Shown here: positions 2,325-25,099 of the stretch, piece after piece
How positions within the stretch are numbered: position 1 is the first letter of the stretch
Layout: each line of letters starts with the position of its first letter
Assembly: GCA_028281385.1 (NCBI GenBank)
Contig: JANQJY010000019.1
Location: forward strand, 1-41,093
DNA length: 41,093 nucleotides
Reading direction: 5' to 3'
Source: Rickettsiales bacterium
Lineage (GTDB): Bacteria > Pseudomonadota > Alphaproteobacteria > Rickettsiales > UBA3002
Position numbers and translations under genes: made by a program
The notes under the pieces: model-generated
Database searches by the model: none
Told to the model about the DNA's origin: nothing
Seen by the model: the letters and a program-made list of their open reading frames with translations, nothing else

Positions 2325-4253
2325 CTAAAGCCTTGCGACCGGTTTGACTAAATGCGTATCAACATAGCGCACCAGTTCATCGACACAGGCATCGATATCC
2401 ATCGCCTCGGTATCAATCACCAGATCGGGGTGTTTCGGCTCCTCATAAGGTGCCGAAATACCTGTAAACTCTTTGATTTCTCCGGCACGTGCCTTCTGAT
2501 ACAGTCCCTTCACATCGCGGGCCTCACAAGCCTCGACACTGGCTTTGATATAGACCGTATTGAAATACTGACTCGCCATCGTACGTGCACGACGGCGGTC
2601 TTCATTATAGGGCGAAATAAAGGCAGTAATGACAATCACGCCGGCATCGGCAAACAGGGAAGCAACCTCACCGATCCGCCGGATATTTTCGGTGCGATCT
2701 TCCGGCGAAAAGCCCAGATCGGAACATAATCCGGCACGAACATTGTCGCCATCCAGTACATAGACCTGATAGCCGCGCTGGAACAAGCGGCGCTGCAACT
2801 CCTTCGCCAGCGTTGATTTTCCCGAACCAGACAGGCCGGTAAACCACAACACACCGCCCAGATGGCCGTTTACCTGTGCACGCTTTTCACGCTCGATTTC
2901 ATAATCAACCATGACAAGGTTGGAGGATTTGATATCCTTCGCGCGGATACGCTGATCTTCCAGCCCTTCGGTCGAAATGATCCCGCCACCGGCAACATCA
3001 TAGCCGTCAAACAGCATAAACCGTCCGGTACGCGGCAAATCGCCATGATCATCCACCGCCATCGTACCCTTGATACGCAGTGACACTTCTGCCACCTGAT
3101 GCTTGCCCACATGCTCCGGTGAATCAGAAGAAAGTTCATTGGTATCAATGACTTTATTGATTTTCTTCACTTCACACATCATCGTGTTGGTGCCGAGTTT
3201 CATGCGGTAATTATTTCCCTCTTTCAGCGGCGTTTCCGACAGCCAGAACAGCCGGCTGTGGATCAAAGGCGTCAGAATCGGCGCCTGTTCGTCATGGCTG
3301 CCGATTTGTCCGCGTTCGACAAAGATCTGTTCTGCAAGTCTGATGCCAACCGATTGTCCGGCAGAGGCGGAGTCGATGGCAGGCGCCTCTTCAGGCCAGC
3401 GCTCGAAGGATTTGACTTTCGCACTCAGCCCCGAGGGGGAAAACAGTAACTCATCCCCGACTTTCAGTGTACCGCTTTCAATGCGCCCGGCAATGATCCG
3501 CCGCTCATCGAAGCGGTACACATCCTGCACCATAAAGCGCAGCGGCTGATCTTCCGGCTCGGCCATCGGGGTGAACTGATCGAGCAGTTGCGTAACCGTC
3601 GGCCCGTCATACCAGCCCATCTTCTCCGACGGTTCTTTGATCATATCGCCTTCGCGCGCCGAGATCGGGACAAAGGCCAGCGGATCAACCCCCAGTTCGC
3701 CGAGATACTGCGCATATTCCTTCCGCACCGCTTCAAAGCGCGCCTGATCATACCCCACCAGATCCATCTTGTTGATCACCACGCCGACCTGTTTGATGCC
3801 GAGCAGGCTCAACAGATAGCCATGGCGTTTGGATTGCTCCTTCACTCCCTCCTGCGCGTCGATCAGCAGCAGCGCCGCTTCGGCCGAGGCGGCACCGGTA
3901 ATCATATTCTTCAGAAACTCGCGGTGGCCTGGCGCGTCGATCAGGCAATAGCGCCGCAAGGCGGTGGAAAACCAGATCTGCGTGGTATCGATGGTGACAT
4001 TCTGATCGCGCTCGGCCTGCAGCGCATCCATGAGAAACGCCCACTCGAACGCCATACCGCGCTTGTCGCAGCTGGCCTTGATGGTGTCATATTTGCCATC
4101 CGGCAGGGAATCGGTCTCATACAGCAACCGCCCGACCAGTGTCGATTTACCGTGATCAACATGGCCGACAATGACGATCTTCAACTGCTCATCAGTCGAG
4201 AGAGGCGAAGGACGAAGGACGAGGGACGAGGCATGCACAGCAGCAGTATTCAT
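2325..4253 (-). CDS. cysNC: CysNC, sulfate adenylyltransferase GTPase subunit fused to APS kinase
   Basis: Bifunctional enzyme: the CysN part drives ATP sulfurylase by GTP hydrolysis and the CysC part phosphorylates APS to PAPS. The GTPase P-loop GHVDHGKST is at residues 30-38, followed by DAPGHREF and NKMD. The APS kinase domain starts near residue 464 with the P-loop GLSGSGKS (473-480) and FISPYNEDR, whose Ser547 is the usual phospho-acceptor position. The full length of 642 is normal for the fusion. The start ATG overlaps the stop of the four-helix-bundle gene (ATGA). Residues 8-18 are encoded by one arm of the repeat that brackets that upstream gene, so the N-terminus looks rebuilt by an insertion. 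It acts with CysD, two genes upstream. Confidence 0.95.
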
Positions 4254-4645
4254 AATTTCTCTTTCAACGATTTTTGCAAACCGGTCAACATGCGATTCAC
4301 TTCATCGCTACGAGCCATAGCATCGTTTAATTGTTCCGGTTCAATATAACCCCAGCGTTCCGCCAGCAGAGCCTGTGTCTCAAGTTCAGCAAGCGAACCT
4401 TTGGCTATGGCAATAAATTGCAGAAATTCTCTGGTACTGCTGCGAGCATGCCCTTCCGCAAGATTAGATGGTATGGAAATGACAGCACGCCTGATCTGGC
4501 TGGTCATGCCATATTGTTCTTCTTTTGGAAAAGAGCGGCTGATATCATACACTATGTCAGCAAGATCCATAGCTTTCTGCCATACCAGCAATTCTTTGTA
4601 ATGCGTTACCATCTGATCTCTCGTCCCTCGTCTCTCGTCCCTCTA
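4196..4645. mobile_element. Inverted-repeat element carrying a four-helix-bundle gene
   Basis: Two arrays of a degenerate 7-base unit (GGACGAG/GGACGAA on the top strand at about 4207-4231, the complement CTCGTCC/CTCGTCT at about 4617-4641) lie in opposite orientation on either side of a single small gene. By eye the two 25-base arms match at about 21 positions. One boundary lies at the TAG stop of the upstream 116-residue gene (4643-4645). The other lies inside the first 20 codons of cysNC. No transposase is present. The arrangement resembles known 23S rRNA intervening sequences that encode S23-type proteins, but here it sits in a protein operon. Calling it mobile is inference. Confidence 0.55.
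4250..4612 (-). CDS. Four-helix-bundle protein (S23 / 23S rRNA intervening-sequence type)
   Basis: The 120-residue protein matches the S23-type four-helix-bundle family: an N-terminal motif around [12 protein letters not shown], then [19 protein letters not shown], then [19 protein letters not shown]. Family members are encoded in intervening sequences of some 23S rRNA genes and as solitary genes; the relative Avd works with diversity-generating retroelements. The biochemical role is not established. The gene sits between two sulfate-assimilation genes, is flanked by inverted repeat arrays, and its stop overlaps the cysNC start. The purine-rich repeat arm directly upstream may double as its ribosome binding site. 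The family call is firm; a role in sulfur metabolism is unlikely and the gene looks like a passenger. Confidence 0.85.
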
Positions 4646-5019: not shown

Positions 5020-5150
5020 CGTCATTCCGGACAAGTGATCATCGATCACGCGATCCGGAATCTCCCTGCCTGTGGCATGAGATCCCCGCTTCTCGCCGCG
5101 CAAGCGCTGGCGCAGCGGGTCGCGGGGATAAATTGCGGCTAAGCTCCCTT
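5020..5150. repeat. Palindromic elements between cysD and the next gene
   Basis: Two hairpins in tandem. The first (5020-5062) has outer arms GTCATTCCGG and CCGGAATC and an inner stem GTGATC/GATCAC. The second (about 5081-5130) has arms GATCCCCGC and GCGGGGAT with a G/C-rich interior. The first has a close relative at 37469-37515 that keeps the outer arms and changes the inner stem on both sides. It resembles the short dispersed palindromes common between genes in alphaproteobacteria. Confidence 0.75.
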
Positions 5151-6000: not shown

Positions 6001-6306
6001 CCGTGCCTTTTAGCGGGGAATGACAGGAAGTGCAACGAATTGTGTTCGCGTCATTCCGGCCAAGGTGTCAGGCTTGTCTCGCCAAAGCGAAGCGACGGCG
6101 GAAGACACCGTGTGCCGGAATCCAGTGGAAGCAGAATCAAGTCAGTAGACTCGATGCGTATAGTTTAGACGGCCTCGGACTTCTGTCCTCAGCCTTTTCT
6201 GGATCCCGGAGTTCGTGATCTCCTAATCACTCATCCGGAATGACAAAATAAGAAACCCTCACTTCTTTGATGACAGCATAACTTCACCTCTTTATAACTC
6301 GCCGAC
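6001..6306. repeat. Intergenic palindromic elements between divergent cysD and ccmD
   Basis: This gene-free stretch is mostly palindromic. One element spans 6049-6128, with outer arms CGTCATTCCGGC/GCCGGAATCC and an inner pair GGTGTC/GACACC. A second, in inverted orientation, spans about 6199-6244, ending in ATCCGGAATGAC with an inner GTGAT/ATCAC stem. Both belong to the same GTCATTCCGG family as 5020-5062 and 37469-37515. Promoters for cysD and ccmD should lie here, but I cannot place them with confidence. Confidence 0.7.
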
Positions 6307-6477: not shown

Positions 6478-6480
6478 TGC

Positions 6481-6562
6481 CGTCATTGCGAGGAAATGCA
6501 CCAGCATTGACGAAGCAATCCAGTCTGGATTGCCGCAGTCGCTTCGCTCCTTCGCAATGACG
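6481..6562. repeat. Dispersed palindrome (CGTCATTGCGAGG type) between ccmD and ccmE
   Basis: An 82-base near-palindrome with ends CGTCATTGCGAGGA and TCCTTCGCAATGACG. Its middle contains GACGAAGCAATCCAGTCTGG, which recurs almost unchanged inside the ileS coding sequence at 18101-18170. Intergenic here, in frame there. It leaves the ccmE ribosome binding site intact. Confidence 0.85.
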
Positions 6563-6576
6563 TATGGGGAGGTGCG

Positions 6577-7020
6577 ATGAAACCAAAACATAAACGACTG
6601 ATCGGGTTGCTGGTGGCCGGACTGGTGATGACATCAGGGCTAGCGCTGATGTTATCGGCCTTTTCCGAGAATCTGATCTTTTTCTATACGCCCTCGCAAC
6701 TGTCCGCGCTCGATGCGGATAAACGCATACGTATCATGCGCAGCGGCGGGCTGGTCGAGATGGGCAGTGTGCAAAAGACCGGCAAGACGTCGATCCGCTT
6801 TGTGATTACGGACCTAACCGAGTCGATCACCGCCGACTATACCGGCCTGCTGCCCAGCCTGTTCCGCGAGGGACAAGGCGTCGTCGCCCAGGGCACACTG
6901 CAGCCGGACGGAAGCTTTCATGCCGCCACCATCCTCGCCAAGCATGATGAAAACTACATGCCGCCCGAAGTCGTCGAGGCACTCAAGGCCTCCGGGCGGT
7001 GGGAGCATTATGGGAAGTAA
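6577..7020 (+). CDS. ccmE: CcmE, periplasmic haem chaperone
   Basis: Binds haem covalently and passes it to CcmF/CcmH for attachment to apocytochrome c. The 147-residue protein has an N-terminal membrane anchor (about residues 8-28), then the OB-fold domain. The haem-binding motif HDENYMP gives His123 as the covalent ligand and Tyr127 as the axial one. The GGGGAGG ribosome binding site just ahead of the ATG supports the start. It lies between ccmD and ccmF on the same strand. Confidence 0.95.
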   Translation: MKPKHKRLIGLLVAGLVMTSGLALMLSAFSENLIFFYTPSQLSALDADKRIRIMRSGGLVEMGSVQKTGKTSIRFVITDLTESITADYTGLLPSLFREGQGVVAQGTLQPDGSFHAATILAKHDENYMPPEVVEALKASGRWEHYGK

Positions 7021-7021
7021 T

Positions 7022-7130
7022 TAGTTGTCAGTAGCTAGTAGCTTGGTCGTTAATTCCTACTGGGGCTGGACTAATGGATAACACCCCTCTATGACACTAG
7101 CTACTAAAAACCAGCTACTGGCTACTAACT
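7022..7130. repeat. Hairpin of degenerate TAGTAGC units after the ccmE stop
   Basis: The left arm (about 7022-7043) repeats units such as AGTAGCTAGTAGC. The right arm (about 7096-7130) carries the complement (CTAGCTACT...CAGCTACTGGCTACT). The array begins within two bases of the ccmE TAA and ends at the ccmF start codon. The same unit family occurs after gpsA at 19944-20003. No reading frame is carried. Confidence 0.75.
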
Positions 7131-7131
7131 C

Positions 7132-9024
7132 ATGATCGCAACCCTCGGATATAGTGCACTGATGATTGCCTTCGCGATGGCACTGCTGCAGGCCGCCAGT
7201 CCGCTGTTATCGCATGTGAAACAAGATAGGCGCTACGTCACTTTCGGCCATTACAGCACCGTCGCGCAGGCGCTGTTTACCTCGTTAGCCTTTCTGCTGC
7301 TAATCTGGGCGTTTCTGATTTCGGATTTTCAGGTCAGTACCGTTTATCTGCATTCACACAGCGCTAAGCCGCTGCTGTATAAATTCACCGGCACATGGGG
7401 TAATCATGAAGGCTCGATGCTGTTATGGGCGACGATCCTGTCGGTTTATGGCGCGGCCACCCTCCTGCGCAGAATTCCCAAAGATGCAGCGCTTGAATCC
7501 GTCATGCTCGGGGTGCATGGCGCGATTGCCGCCGGATTGCTGCTGTTCATTCTCGCCACCTCCAACCCGTTCATCACACTTACCCCGATCCCGCCCGAAG
7601 GCCAGGGACTCAACCCGCTGCTGCAGGATATCGGCCTGGCGATTCATCCGCCGTTGCTTTATCTCGGCTATGTCGGTTTTGCGATTATCTTCGCCTATGC
7701 CGTCGCCGGGATGATTACCGGCAAAATGGATAAAGACTGGGCCGCGACCGCGCATCCCTGGATCATGCTGAGCTGGGGCACACTCACCTTCGGTATCGGC
7801 TTCGGCAGCTGGTGGGCGTATCGTGAGCTTGGCTGGGGCGGCTGGTGGTTCTGGGACCCGGTGGAAAATGTGTCGCTGATGCCGTGGCTGGCCGGCACCG
7901 CTCTGCTGCATGCCAATCTGTCGCTGGAAAAGCGCGGCCTGTTTGCGCGCTGGGTGGCGCTGCTGGCGATCTTCTGTTTCGGCTTAAGCCTGATCGGTAC
8001 CTTTATCGTGCGCTCCGGCCTATTGGTTTCGGTACACAGCTTTGCCAGCGATCCTGAGCGCGGTGTCTTTCTGCTACTCTATCTTGCCGTGTTCGTCGGC
8101 AGCGCGCTGATCCTGTTCGCCCGCAGCGCCTTTCCGCCATCGGCGAAATCCTACCCGCTGTCACGCGACGGCATGATACTGGTCAACAATCTGTTCCTGA
8201 GCGTCGCCACCACTACCATTCTGCTGGCGATTCTCTATCCCGTTCTGCTGCAGCTAGTGGGGCAACCCTCCATCACTGTCGGCCCGCCCTATTATCACCA
8301 GACCTTCTTTCCGCTTACCGCACCGCTGCTGTTCCTTGCCGCCGTCGCGCCTTTCCTGCCCTGGGGAGAAGGAAAATTCACCTCACTGCTCAGCGTGCTG
8401 CGCCTGCCTGCGGCTGTCACATTGCTGGTGAGCATCCTGTTACTGACCTGGCTCGATCACCGCCATCTGAGCCTGCTGGGCAGTCTGGCGCTGGCAATCT
8501 GGCTGCTGGCCGCCACGCTGAGCCATATACGCAAAACCCGCCGCAACAGGGGAAACATCAAAAAGGCGGTTGCGCTGTGGTGCGGCCATGGCGGACTGGC
8601 GTTGTTTGCGATGACGGCCGCGTTCTCATCCTTTCTGCATGAAGCCTATGAAGCGCCGCTTTATCCGGATCAACCGGTCCGGCTCGGCGACGTCACGCTG
8701 GAGATGACCGCACAATCCGTCGAGCAAAAAGACAATTATCTCCTGCGCCGCGCTCAGATCGATCTGGAGAAAGACGGCAACTATATCGCCACTTTGTTCC
8801 CCGAAATCCGTTTCTATCCGGTGCGCGGCATGCAGACCTCAGAAGCGGCGATTGCATCGCGCTGGTGGGGCGATTATTATCTGACCATCTCTCCCATACA
8901 GGACAATCAGGCCGTCGGCGTGCGTTTTCATATCCGCCCGGCGATGGGATGGCTGTGGCTCAGCTTCCTTTGTGTGGGCGGTGGCGGATTATGGGTTGCG
9001 ATACGCAGGTGGAACGCGGTATAG
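7132..9024 (+). CDS. ccmF: CcmF, haem lyase component of cytochrome c maturation
   Basis: A polytopic membrane protein of 630 residues, near the usual ~650. It takes haem from CcmE and, with CcmH, attaches it to CXXCH motifs of apocytochromes. The tryptophan-rich haem-handling motif GWGGWWFWDP is at residues 234-243, and histidines flank it in the expected places (GNHEGSMLLW, IHPPLLYLGYVGF, LWLDHR). A periplasmic domain near the C-terminus precedes the last membrane segment. The start codon directly follows a repeat hairpin, with no clear Shine-Dalgarno sequence, so translation may depend on coupling to ccmE or be weak. Confidence 0.95.
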   Translation: MIATLGYSALMIAFAMALLQAASPLLSHVKQDRRYVTFGHYSTVAQALFTSLAFLLLIWAFLISDFQVSTVYLHSHSAKPLLYKFTGTWGNHEGSMLLWATILSVYGAATLLRRIPKDAALESVMLGVHGAIAAGLLLFILATSNPFITLTPIPPEGQGLNPLLQDIGLAIHPPLLYLGYVGFAIIFAYAVAGMITGKMDKDWAATAHPWIMLSWGTLTFGIGFGSWWAYRELGWGGWWFWDPVENVSLMPWLAGTALLHANLSLEKRGLFARWVALLAIFCFGLSLIGTFIVRSGLLVSVHSFASDPERGVFLLLYLAVFVGSALILFARSAFPPSAKSYPLSRDGMILVNNLFLSVATTTILLAILYPVLLQLVGQPSITVGPPYYHQTFFPLTAPLLFLAAVAPFLPWGEGKFTSLLSVLRLPAAVTLLVSILLLTWLDHRHLSLLGSLALAIWLLAATLSHIRKTRRNRGNIKKAVALWCGHGGLALFAMTAAFSSFLHEAYEAPLYPDQPVRLGDVTLEMTAQSVEQKDNYLLRRAQIDLEKDGNYIATLFPEIRFYPVRGMQTSEAAIASRWWGDYYLTISPIQDNQAVGVRFHIRPAMGWLWLSFLCVGGGGLWVAIRRWNAV

Positions 9025-19946: not shown

Positions 19947-20003
19947 CGAGTATTAGTAGCCAGTAGCTAGTCCAGCTACTAATAACTTGCTACTAGCTAC
20001 TAA
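19944..20003. repeat. Hairpin of degenerate TAGTAGC units after the gpsA stop
   Basis: The left arm TATTAGTAGCCAGTAGCTAG (19951-19970) is followed at once by the longer complementary arm (about 19972-20003, with CAGCTACT...TACTAGCTACTAA). TAGTAGCCAGTAGCT is also found, inverted, in the right arm of the 7022-7130 hairpin. It is a strong structure that could terminate or protect the ileS-gpsA transcript. Confidence 0.8.
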
Positions 20004-22912: not shown

Positions 22913-22997
22913 TAAGAGACTAGAGAGGAGAGGCTATCCTAACCTCTAATCTCTAACCTCTAGTCTCTAGCCTCTAGTCTCTAGCCTCTAGCCTCTA
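22913..22997. repeat. Hairpin of degenerate CCTCTAGTCTCTAG units at the glnA stop
   Basis: A short left arm (about 22913-22935, AGAGACTAGAGAGGAGAGG) faces a long right arm (about 22940-22997) made of repeated CCTCTAGTCTCTAG-type units. Read on the minus strand, the TAG stop of glnA is itself the first unit of the array. Confidence 0.8.
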
Positions 22998-25003: not shown

Positions 25004-25099
25004 TGGTGACGCGGTGAAATGGTGAAACGGCAAAGCGGTGAAACGGTAAAATAGTGAAATAGTTTTTAATAACCGCTTCACCATCTCACTACTTCACCA
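25004..25099. repeat. Hairpin of degenerate GTGAAACG units
   Basis: The left array (about 25004-25062) repeats GGTGAAACGGTGAAATGG-like units; the right array (about 25073-25099) is the complement (CTTCACCATCTCACTACTTCACC). It lies in the gene-free stretch between the glnB promoter and the tRNA-His promoter. The rest of that stretch (24900-25003) holds nothing I recognise. Confidence 0.75.

Follow-up and report, generated by a model that had tools for sequence, protein, structure and literature searches.

Introduction

The described systems closest to the element analysed here are the intervening sequences (IVSs) of 23S rRNA genes in Leptospira, Coxiella and others, for which mobility has previously been proposed. 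The 23S IVS of Coxiella carries tandem GACAGAT heptamers in strain-dependent number, has a 28-bp terminal stem and is cleaved by RNase III (PMC4990558), and IVP open reading frames are also found in CPR rRNA insertions (PMC11270868). Heptamer repeats are in addition a known class of bacterial SSRs (PMC4692102, PMC4679880): intergenic tandem 7-mers such as GGGAATC in Xanthomonas, GGGGAYT in Nostoc and TAACTGA in Beggiatoaceae (PMC4679880) belong here, and about 70 convergent (inverted) heptamer pairs per genome are reported for Xanthomonas (PMC4692102). In the text searched, these two SSR papers connect the repeats neither with a four-helix-bundle gene nor with insertion events. Likewise, the open-licence PMC literature, to which this search was confined, contained no report that connects opposed heptamer arrays, or mobility, with stand-alone four-helix-bundle genes.

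The DNA studied here is a stretch of 41,093 nt from a Rickettsiales bacterium (GCA_028281385.1, contig JANQJY010000019.1), referred to as the window. Its sulfur-assimilation operon contains what is very probably an IVS-type mobile element, about 440 bp long, in which opposed 7-nt arrays enclose a four-helix-bundle (S23/IVP) gene and which is inserted at a stop/start junction.

Results

A four-helix-bundle gene between opposed arrays in the cys operon

The operon lies on the minus strand in the order cysD (6000–5167, identified by profile matches), gene X (4993–4643; 116 aa, without a Pfam or NCBIfam match), a 120-aa gene (4612–4250) and cysNC (4253–2325), whose reading frame and profile matches identify it as sulfate adenylyltransferase subunit 1/APS kinase. 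Within the element region (4196–4645) the 120-aa gene, a member of PF05635 (S23/23S rRNA-IVP), is enclosed by opposed arrays of a 7-nt unit. Read in the sense of the operon, gene X ends with CTCATTAG and is directly followed by AGGGACGAGAGACGAGGGACGAGAGATCAGATG, the 120-aa ORF and then CTCGTCCCTCGTCCTTCGTCCTTCGCCTCTCTCGAC. The 5′ terminal array (4617–4644, sense GGGACGAGAGACGAGGGACGAGAGA) begins directly 3′ of the gene X TAG; the opposed 3′ terminal array (4199–4231), with CTCGTCCCTCGTCCTTCGTCCTTCG just within cysN, codes for CysN residues 8–18. Both arrays were scored at period 7 by TRF. Their pairing gives inverted arms of 24 nt that are 88% complementary and 389 nt apart (4207–4230/4620–4643), or wider arms of 28 nt with 79% complementarity (4199–4226/4617–4644). 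The motif GGACGAGNGACGAG, with one mismatch allowed, occurs four times in the window, each time within the element arrays, against an expectation of 0.05. The TGA of the four-helix-bundle gene overlaps the cysNC ATG as ATGA, and the element's RNA has a folding z-score of −6.0 relative to dinucleotide shuffles. An earlier note, made from the sequence alone, had described a single S23-type gene between opposed 7-base arrays, the first starting at the TAG of the upstream gene and the second encoding part of the CysN N-terminus, with ATGA coupling to cysNC, and our analysis bears out each of these points. Dispersed palindromic repeats of a kind different from the heptamer arrays are present in the intergenic gaps at ~5020–5140, 6045–6240 and ~6480–6570 (CGTCATTCCGG..., GTCATTGCGAGG...CAATCCAG).

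The 120-aa product passes the curated cut-offs of both PF05635 (1.6e-39, 134.8 bits versus 33.8) and the NCBIfam profile TIGR02436 (9.5e-38, 128.8 bits versus 24). Its AlphaFold model (pLDDT 96) has four helices and superposes on the S23-family structure Xcc0516 (2gsc) with an rmsd of 0.6–0.8 Å, which places the protein in the S23/23S rRNA-IVP family. The model also shares the fold of Avd, the accessory protein of the Bordetella phage diversity-generating retroelement (4dwl, TM 0.79), and there is weak sequence similarity to PF22296 bAvd; however, the protein falls below the NCBIfam Avd cut-off (34.9 versus 80 bits), and the window genome has no RVT_1 reverse transcriptase match. Membership in the diversity-generating retroelements is rejected on these two grounds. 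A tblastn search of 50,697 phage records returned no match to the four-helix-bundle gene, and annotation as an anti-phage defence element was rejected, with no PADLOC match. Between divergent plasmid copies of the gene dN/dS is 0.10–0.15, which shows purifying selection, and the protein is therefore used. Weaker PF05635 matches lie in open frames of 270–340 aa in the same family of bacteria (G005:C99, G006:C37, G008:C5, G009:C157, G010:C13, G011:C197 and G012:C27), which are possibly a longer protein with a PF05635 domain.

Opposed arrays accompany PF05635 genes across phyla

The earlier note had proposed looking for opposed tandem arrays around other stand-alone S23-type genes. We compared 125 PF05635 loci from the window genome, from relatives in its order and class, and from 80 named genomes that between them cover many phyla (Proteobacteria, Bacteroidota, Planctomycetes, Clostridia, Chloroflexi, Acidobacteria, Cyanobacteria, Gracilibacteria and an archaeal MAG); the loci are partly non-independent, a few being orthologues or stemming from the same genome reached twice (e.g., L054 and L091). 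Opposed arrays were present at 110–112 of them (88–90%). Complementarity between the upstream and downstream flanks exceeded the 99th percentile of shuffled flanks at 112 loci and that of flanks swapped between loci at 81, and the level attained by 88% of the four-helix-bundle loci was reached by 4% of 573 control ORFs from the same loci. The ~12% of loci without clear arrays include weak members of the family and decayed copies. The best lag was 7, 14 or 21 in 69 of 81 strong upstream and 64 of 72 strong downstream arrays, with a few at period 8. Each of the six PF05635 genes of the window genome lies between opposed arrays of a unit of its own, an 8-mer case under the score threshold (L005) among them, and three shuffles of the 346-kb sample of this genome that we scanned, window included, yielded no opposed period-7/8 array pair.

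Among the 122 loci with clear arms, the arms have a median length of about 30 nt and an outer span of 450 nt (IQR 433–488). The 5′ arm starts at a median of +1 nt past the upstream stop codon, and the following start codon lies at a median of +9 nt past the 3′ arm. The base content of the 5′ arm is 38.5% G and 11.9% C, with G exceeding C in 114 of the 122 loci; thus, element polarity is fixed. Both neighbours are co-directional with the four-helix-bundle gene in 82 of the 91 loci where both were called, an exception being Nostoc edaphicum, where the gene lies antisense between nrdB and nrdA. Elements have array units in common only where their proteins are closely related (identity above roughly 65%). 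At lower identity the units are unrelated, yet each arm continues to match its partner within the element, and the ends therefore evolve in concert. In plasmid pANA02 of Anabaena sp. 90 a four-helix-bundle gene is flanked by cas6 and cas4 in a type I-D CRISPR operon (L249).

With complementary termini that enclose an S23 ORF within about 0.4–0.8 kb, the cys element is built like the rRNA IVSs; it is located between gene X and cysNC and not inside an rRNA gene, and is therefore IVS-like rather than an rRNA IVS. A locus from the class search, L071, does lie inside a 23S rRNA gene, with an LSU_rRNA_bacteria match spanning it, and its termini (AGAGGTCAGAGATCAGAAATCAGATATC/CTGACATCTGATTTCTGACATCTGAC) are arrays of the same kind as in the operon elements. 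From these termini and those of the Coxiella IVS it follows that operon elements and rRNA IVSs share protein family, size (about 430–450 nt for the IVSs) and termini, i.e., a complementary terminal stem with heptamers at the 5′ end (in Coxiella and L071). The kinship to 23S rRNA intervening sequences with terminal complementarity that the earlier note had claimed is thus upheld, and sequence comparison shows the same kind of element at many different sites, 23S rRNA among them. In contrast to the rRNA IVSs, the operon elements are found between protein genes and not in an rRNA helix, occur in several copies per genome and have gene-less relatives, and their insertion is demonstrated by near-identical empty sites.

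Filled and empty sites in the family of the window genome

In two genomes of the same family (G001 and G003), gene X is directly followed by cysN, with stop overlapping start and no element. CysN of the sister genus (G001) reaches the IVIVGH motif 11 residues sooner than CysN of the window genome (G000), and the 11-residue excess of the latter corresponds to residues 8–18, which the array encodes. In a third genus (G007), the N-terminus of cysN is coded by heptamers of another unit (CCCTCAA CCCTTAC CCCTCGC CCCTGAC), at which point the contig stops; judged by eye, this appears to be a separate element occupying that site.

The carA/carB junction shows a similar distribution. It is empty, with overlapping stop and start, in four genomes of the window family (G005, G011, G002 and G003), filled by a gene-bearing element in three, and occupied by a gene-less heptamer hairpin in G007; orthologous elements are maintained at this junction across three genera. 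The earlier note had named empty sites in relatives and CysN homologues without residues 8–18 as checks on its reading; the latter exist in the sister genus, and the former exist at the cys and carA/carB junctions as well as in plasmid pairs of 97–98% identity (below). Xanthomonas carA/carB proved uninformative as an empty-site test for exact junctions. Its carA–carB gap (L204–L233) holds several unrelated small genes, varying by species, plus a four-helix-bundle element, and is an intercistronic insertion hot spot.

Insertion seen between near-identical plasmids

In plasmid C of Trichormus variabilis and in a Scytonema plasmid, two genes of a conjugation operon are separated by an element that is absent from six plasmids with 97–98% identity. 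The filled site reads aaaaagTAAT / AAATCAG...TTCTTTG / TAATTAACAAAT and the empty site aaaaagTAATTAACAAAT; the insert is clean, 428 bp long, located at the stop codon and accompanied by a 5-bp GTAAT direct repeat. At this degree of relatedness, alignment of filled and empty sites identifies the element as an insertion and the arrays as its ends. Related elements that share its TCAGRAN unit (78–83% DNA identity) are present at other sites in Aulosira and Nostoc plasmids.

In a second plasmid operon, one junction carries a TCAGRAN element in three plasmids and is empty in others. At the neighbouring junction, an overlapping TAATG, a further plasmid has a different element with GGGAAAA-type arrays, with TAATG at its left border and TTATG at its right, so that both flanking genes stay whole. 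This parting of an overlapping stop and start directly shows the re-creation of gene starts and stops at the borders that the earlier note had inferred. Gene-less units occupy the third junction; in two plasmids the loop of the resident unit holds a second, different one. Nested gene-less units replace 15–18 bp and do not insert cleanly. A four-helix-bundle gene is itself interrupted by a gene-less unit (L244 versus L245), and another such unit parts two rarA-annotated reading frames in Calothrix. As compared across these filled, empty and nested sites, the small mobile unit with its own four-helix-bundle gene that the earlier note had postulated appears to be real, and gene-less units of the same array families exist and evidently move as well.

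Target repeats vary: one site has 5 bp, another has 3 bp (ATG) and a third has none that is unambiguous, and a fixed-length duplication as in a classical transposon or MITE does not emerge from these three sites. In plasmid pC052_E of Nostoc sp. C052 the plasmid element survives as a decayed copy (L241, 1650–1790), of which the 5′ array and the gene start are left and the rest is deleted.

Gene-less array hairpins in the window and elsewhere

Scanning the 346 kb of the window genome detected six gene-less hairpins of opposed 7- or 8-nt arrays. Three are in the window: one with CTAGCCT units and termini like those of the element (22915–22997), one with AGCTACT units just 3′ of a stop codon (19954–20002), and one with an 8-nt unit (CGGTGAAA; 25005–25098). 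Further opposed arrays of the AGCTACT type, recognised by eye and under the scan threshold, lie at 7021–7131, where they exactly fill the stop-to-start gap between the ORFs at 6577–7020 and 7132–9024. Two nearly identical gene-less heptamer hairpins with similar flanks (L161; G000:C118 81157–81228 and 91927–91996) are located ~11 kb apart and seem to belong to a longer repeat.

Gene-less units with the same arrays were found at 95 places in 43 cyanobacterial plasmids. Neither 700 kb sampled from seven further genomes of the order with PF05635 genes nor 800 kb from eight relatives that lack the gene contained a convincing gene-less hairpin; among the 16 genomes compared, such hairpins occur only in the window genome and a Flavobacterium, a distribution that leaves a general pairing of autonomous and non-autonomous units no more than a possibility.

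Discussion

REPtrons consist of a RAYT transposase flanked by inverted REPs. Like REPtrons and MITEs, the cys element combines a small gene between inverted hairpin-forming repeats with gene-less copies. It differs from them in that its termini are tandem heptamers that vary among elements and in that the window genome has no match to the Y1 transposase profile PF01797, the Y1 family being the one that the transposase search covered; a RAYT/REP system in the window host is accordingly unsupported.

Another reading takes the arrays for a miniature inverted-repeat family that depends on an unrelated transposase for its movement, with the four-helix-bundle gene captured as a passenger. Units that have the same arrays but lack the gene are common both in the cyanobacterial plasmids and, with several copies, in the window genome, one target repeat of 5 bp is clean, and the protein has no known catalytic motif. 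A mere passenger would, however, be hard to square with the presence of the same protein family in the loop across many phyla while array sequences are unrelated between loci, with the purifying selection on its gene, or with a host that holds six copies and has no reverse transcriptase or Y1 transposase match (the two families searched for). We therefore regard this reading as possible but rather unlikely.

The mostly co-directional placement at stop/start junctions, the persistence of orthologous carA/carB elements in three genera and the arms that remain complementary during unit turnover could instead point to a conserved regulatory module that does not move, in which an intercistronic hairpin and an RNA-binding protein control processing or translation of the operon mRNA. 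Such a module would not explain the clean empty sites at 97–98% identity, the patchy presence within one family and one plasmid operon, or the unrelated neighbours, nested copies and occurrence inside rRNA, and we consider it improbable, although a resident element may acquire a regulatory role. To the view that the arrays are chance or replication-slippage microsatellites flanking a gene we give hardly any credence: heptamers are an SSR class described in bacteria (PMC4692102, PMC4679880) and array copy number varies, but slippage makes no second, complementary array across the gene, and the complementarity is locus-specific, exceeding that of swapped flanks, and lacking in control ORFs. Chance arrays as such are ruled out by the shuffles, the flank swaps, the control ORFs and the motif count (four seen versus 0.05 expected).

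We thus favour an IVS-type mobile element whose sense-strand termini are a G-rich array at the 5′ end and a C-rich array at the 3′ end, with one S23/IVP gene between them. In the mRNA, the arrays would pair, as those of rRNA IVSs do, into a stem of about 25–30 bp whose loop holds the gene, and the foot of this stem would bring the upstream stop and the downstream start together. By analogy with rRNA, the hairpin may be processed in the mRNA, and RNase III, for which the window genome has a gene, could cut the array stem. An insertion would survive because landing at stop/start junctions leaves both reading frames usable. With less confidence, we suggest from its modelled Avd fold that the four-helix-bundle protein might bind the array hairpin and be needed for spread or maintenance, and it may itself drive mobility. 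A bolder version of this proposal, which we put forward as speculative and less likely to be right than wrong, would make the Avd-like four-helix-bundle protein the trans-acting mobility factor of a class of bacterial transposable elements without a recognisable transposase or reverse transcriptase, reading hairpins of opposed 7-nt arrays by period and not by sequence and inserting units with or without a gene into rRNA and stop/start junctions.

These findings join three literatures, on rRNA IVSs, heptamer SSRs and Avd-like proteins, and raise the question of what moves an element without a recognisable transposase, for which the natural filled and empty plasmids and the nested gene-less copies are ready experimental material. 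Most stand-alone "four helix bundle" genes belong to IVS-type mobile elements that reside in operons and whose rRNA-resident form has been known for decades as the IVS. An abundant "hypothetical" gene family of bacteria thereby gains a genomic explanation, namely that it is mostly the cargo of a small mobile element.
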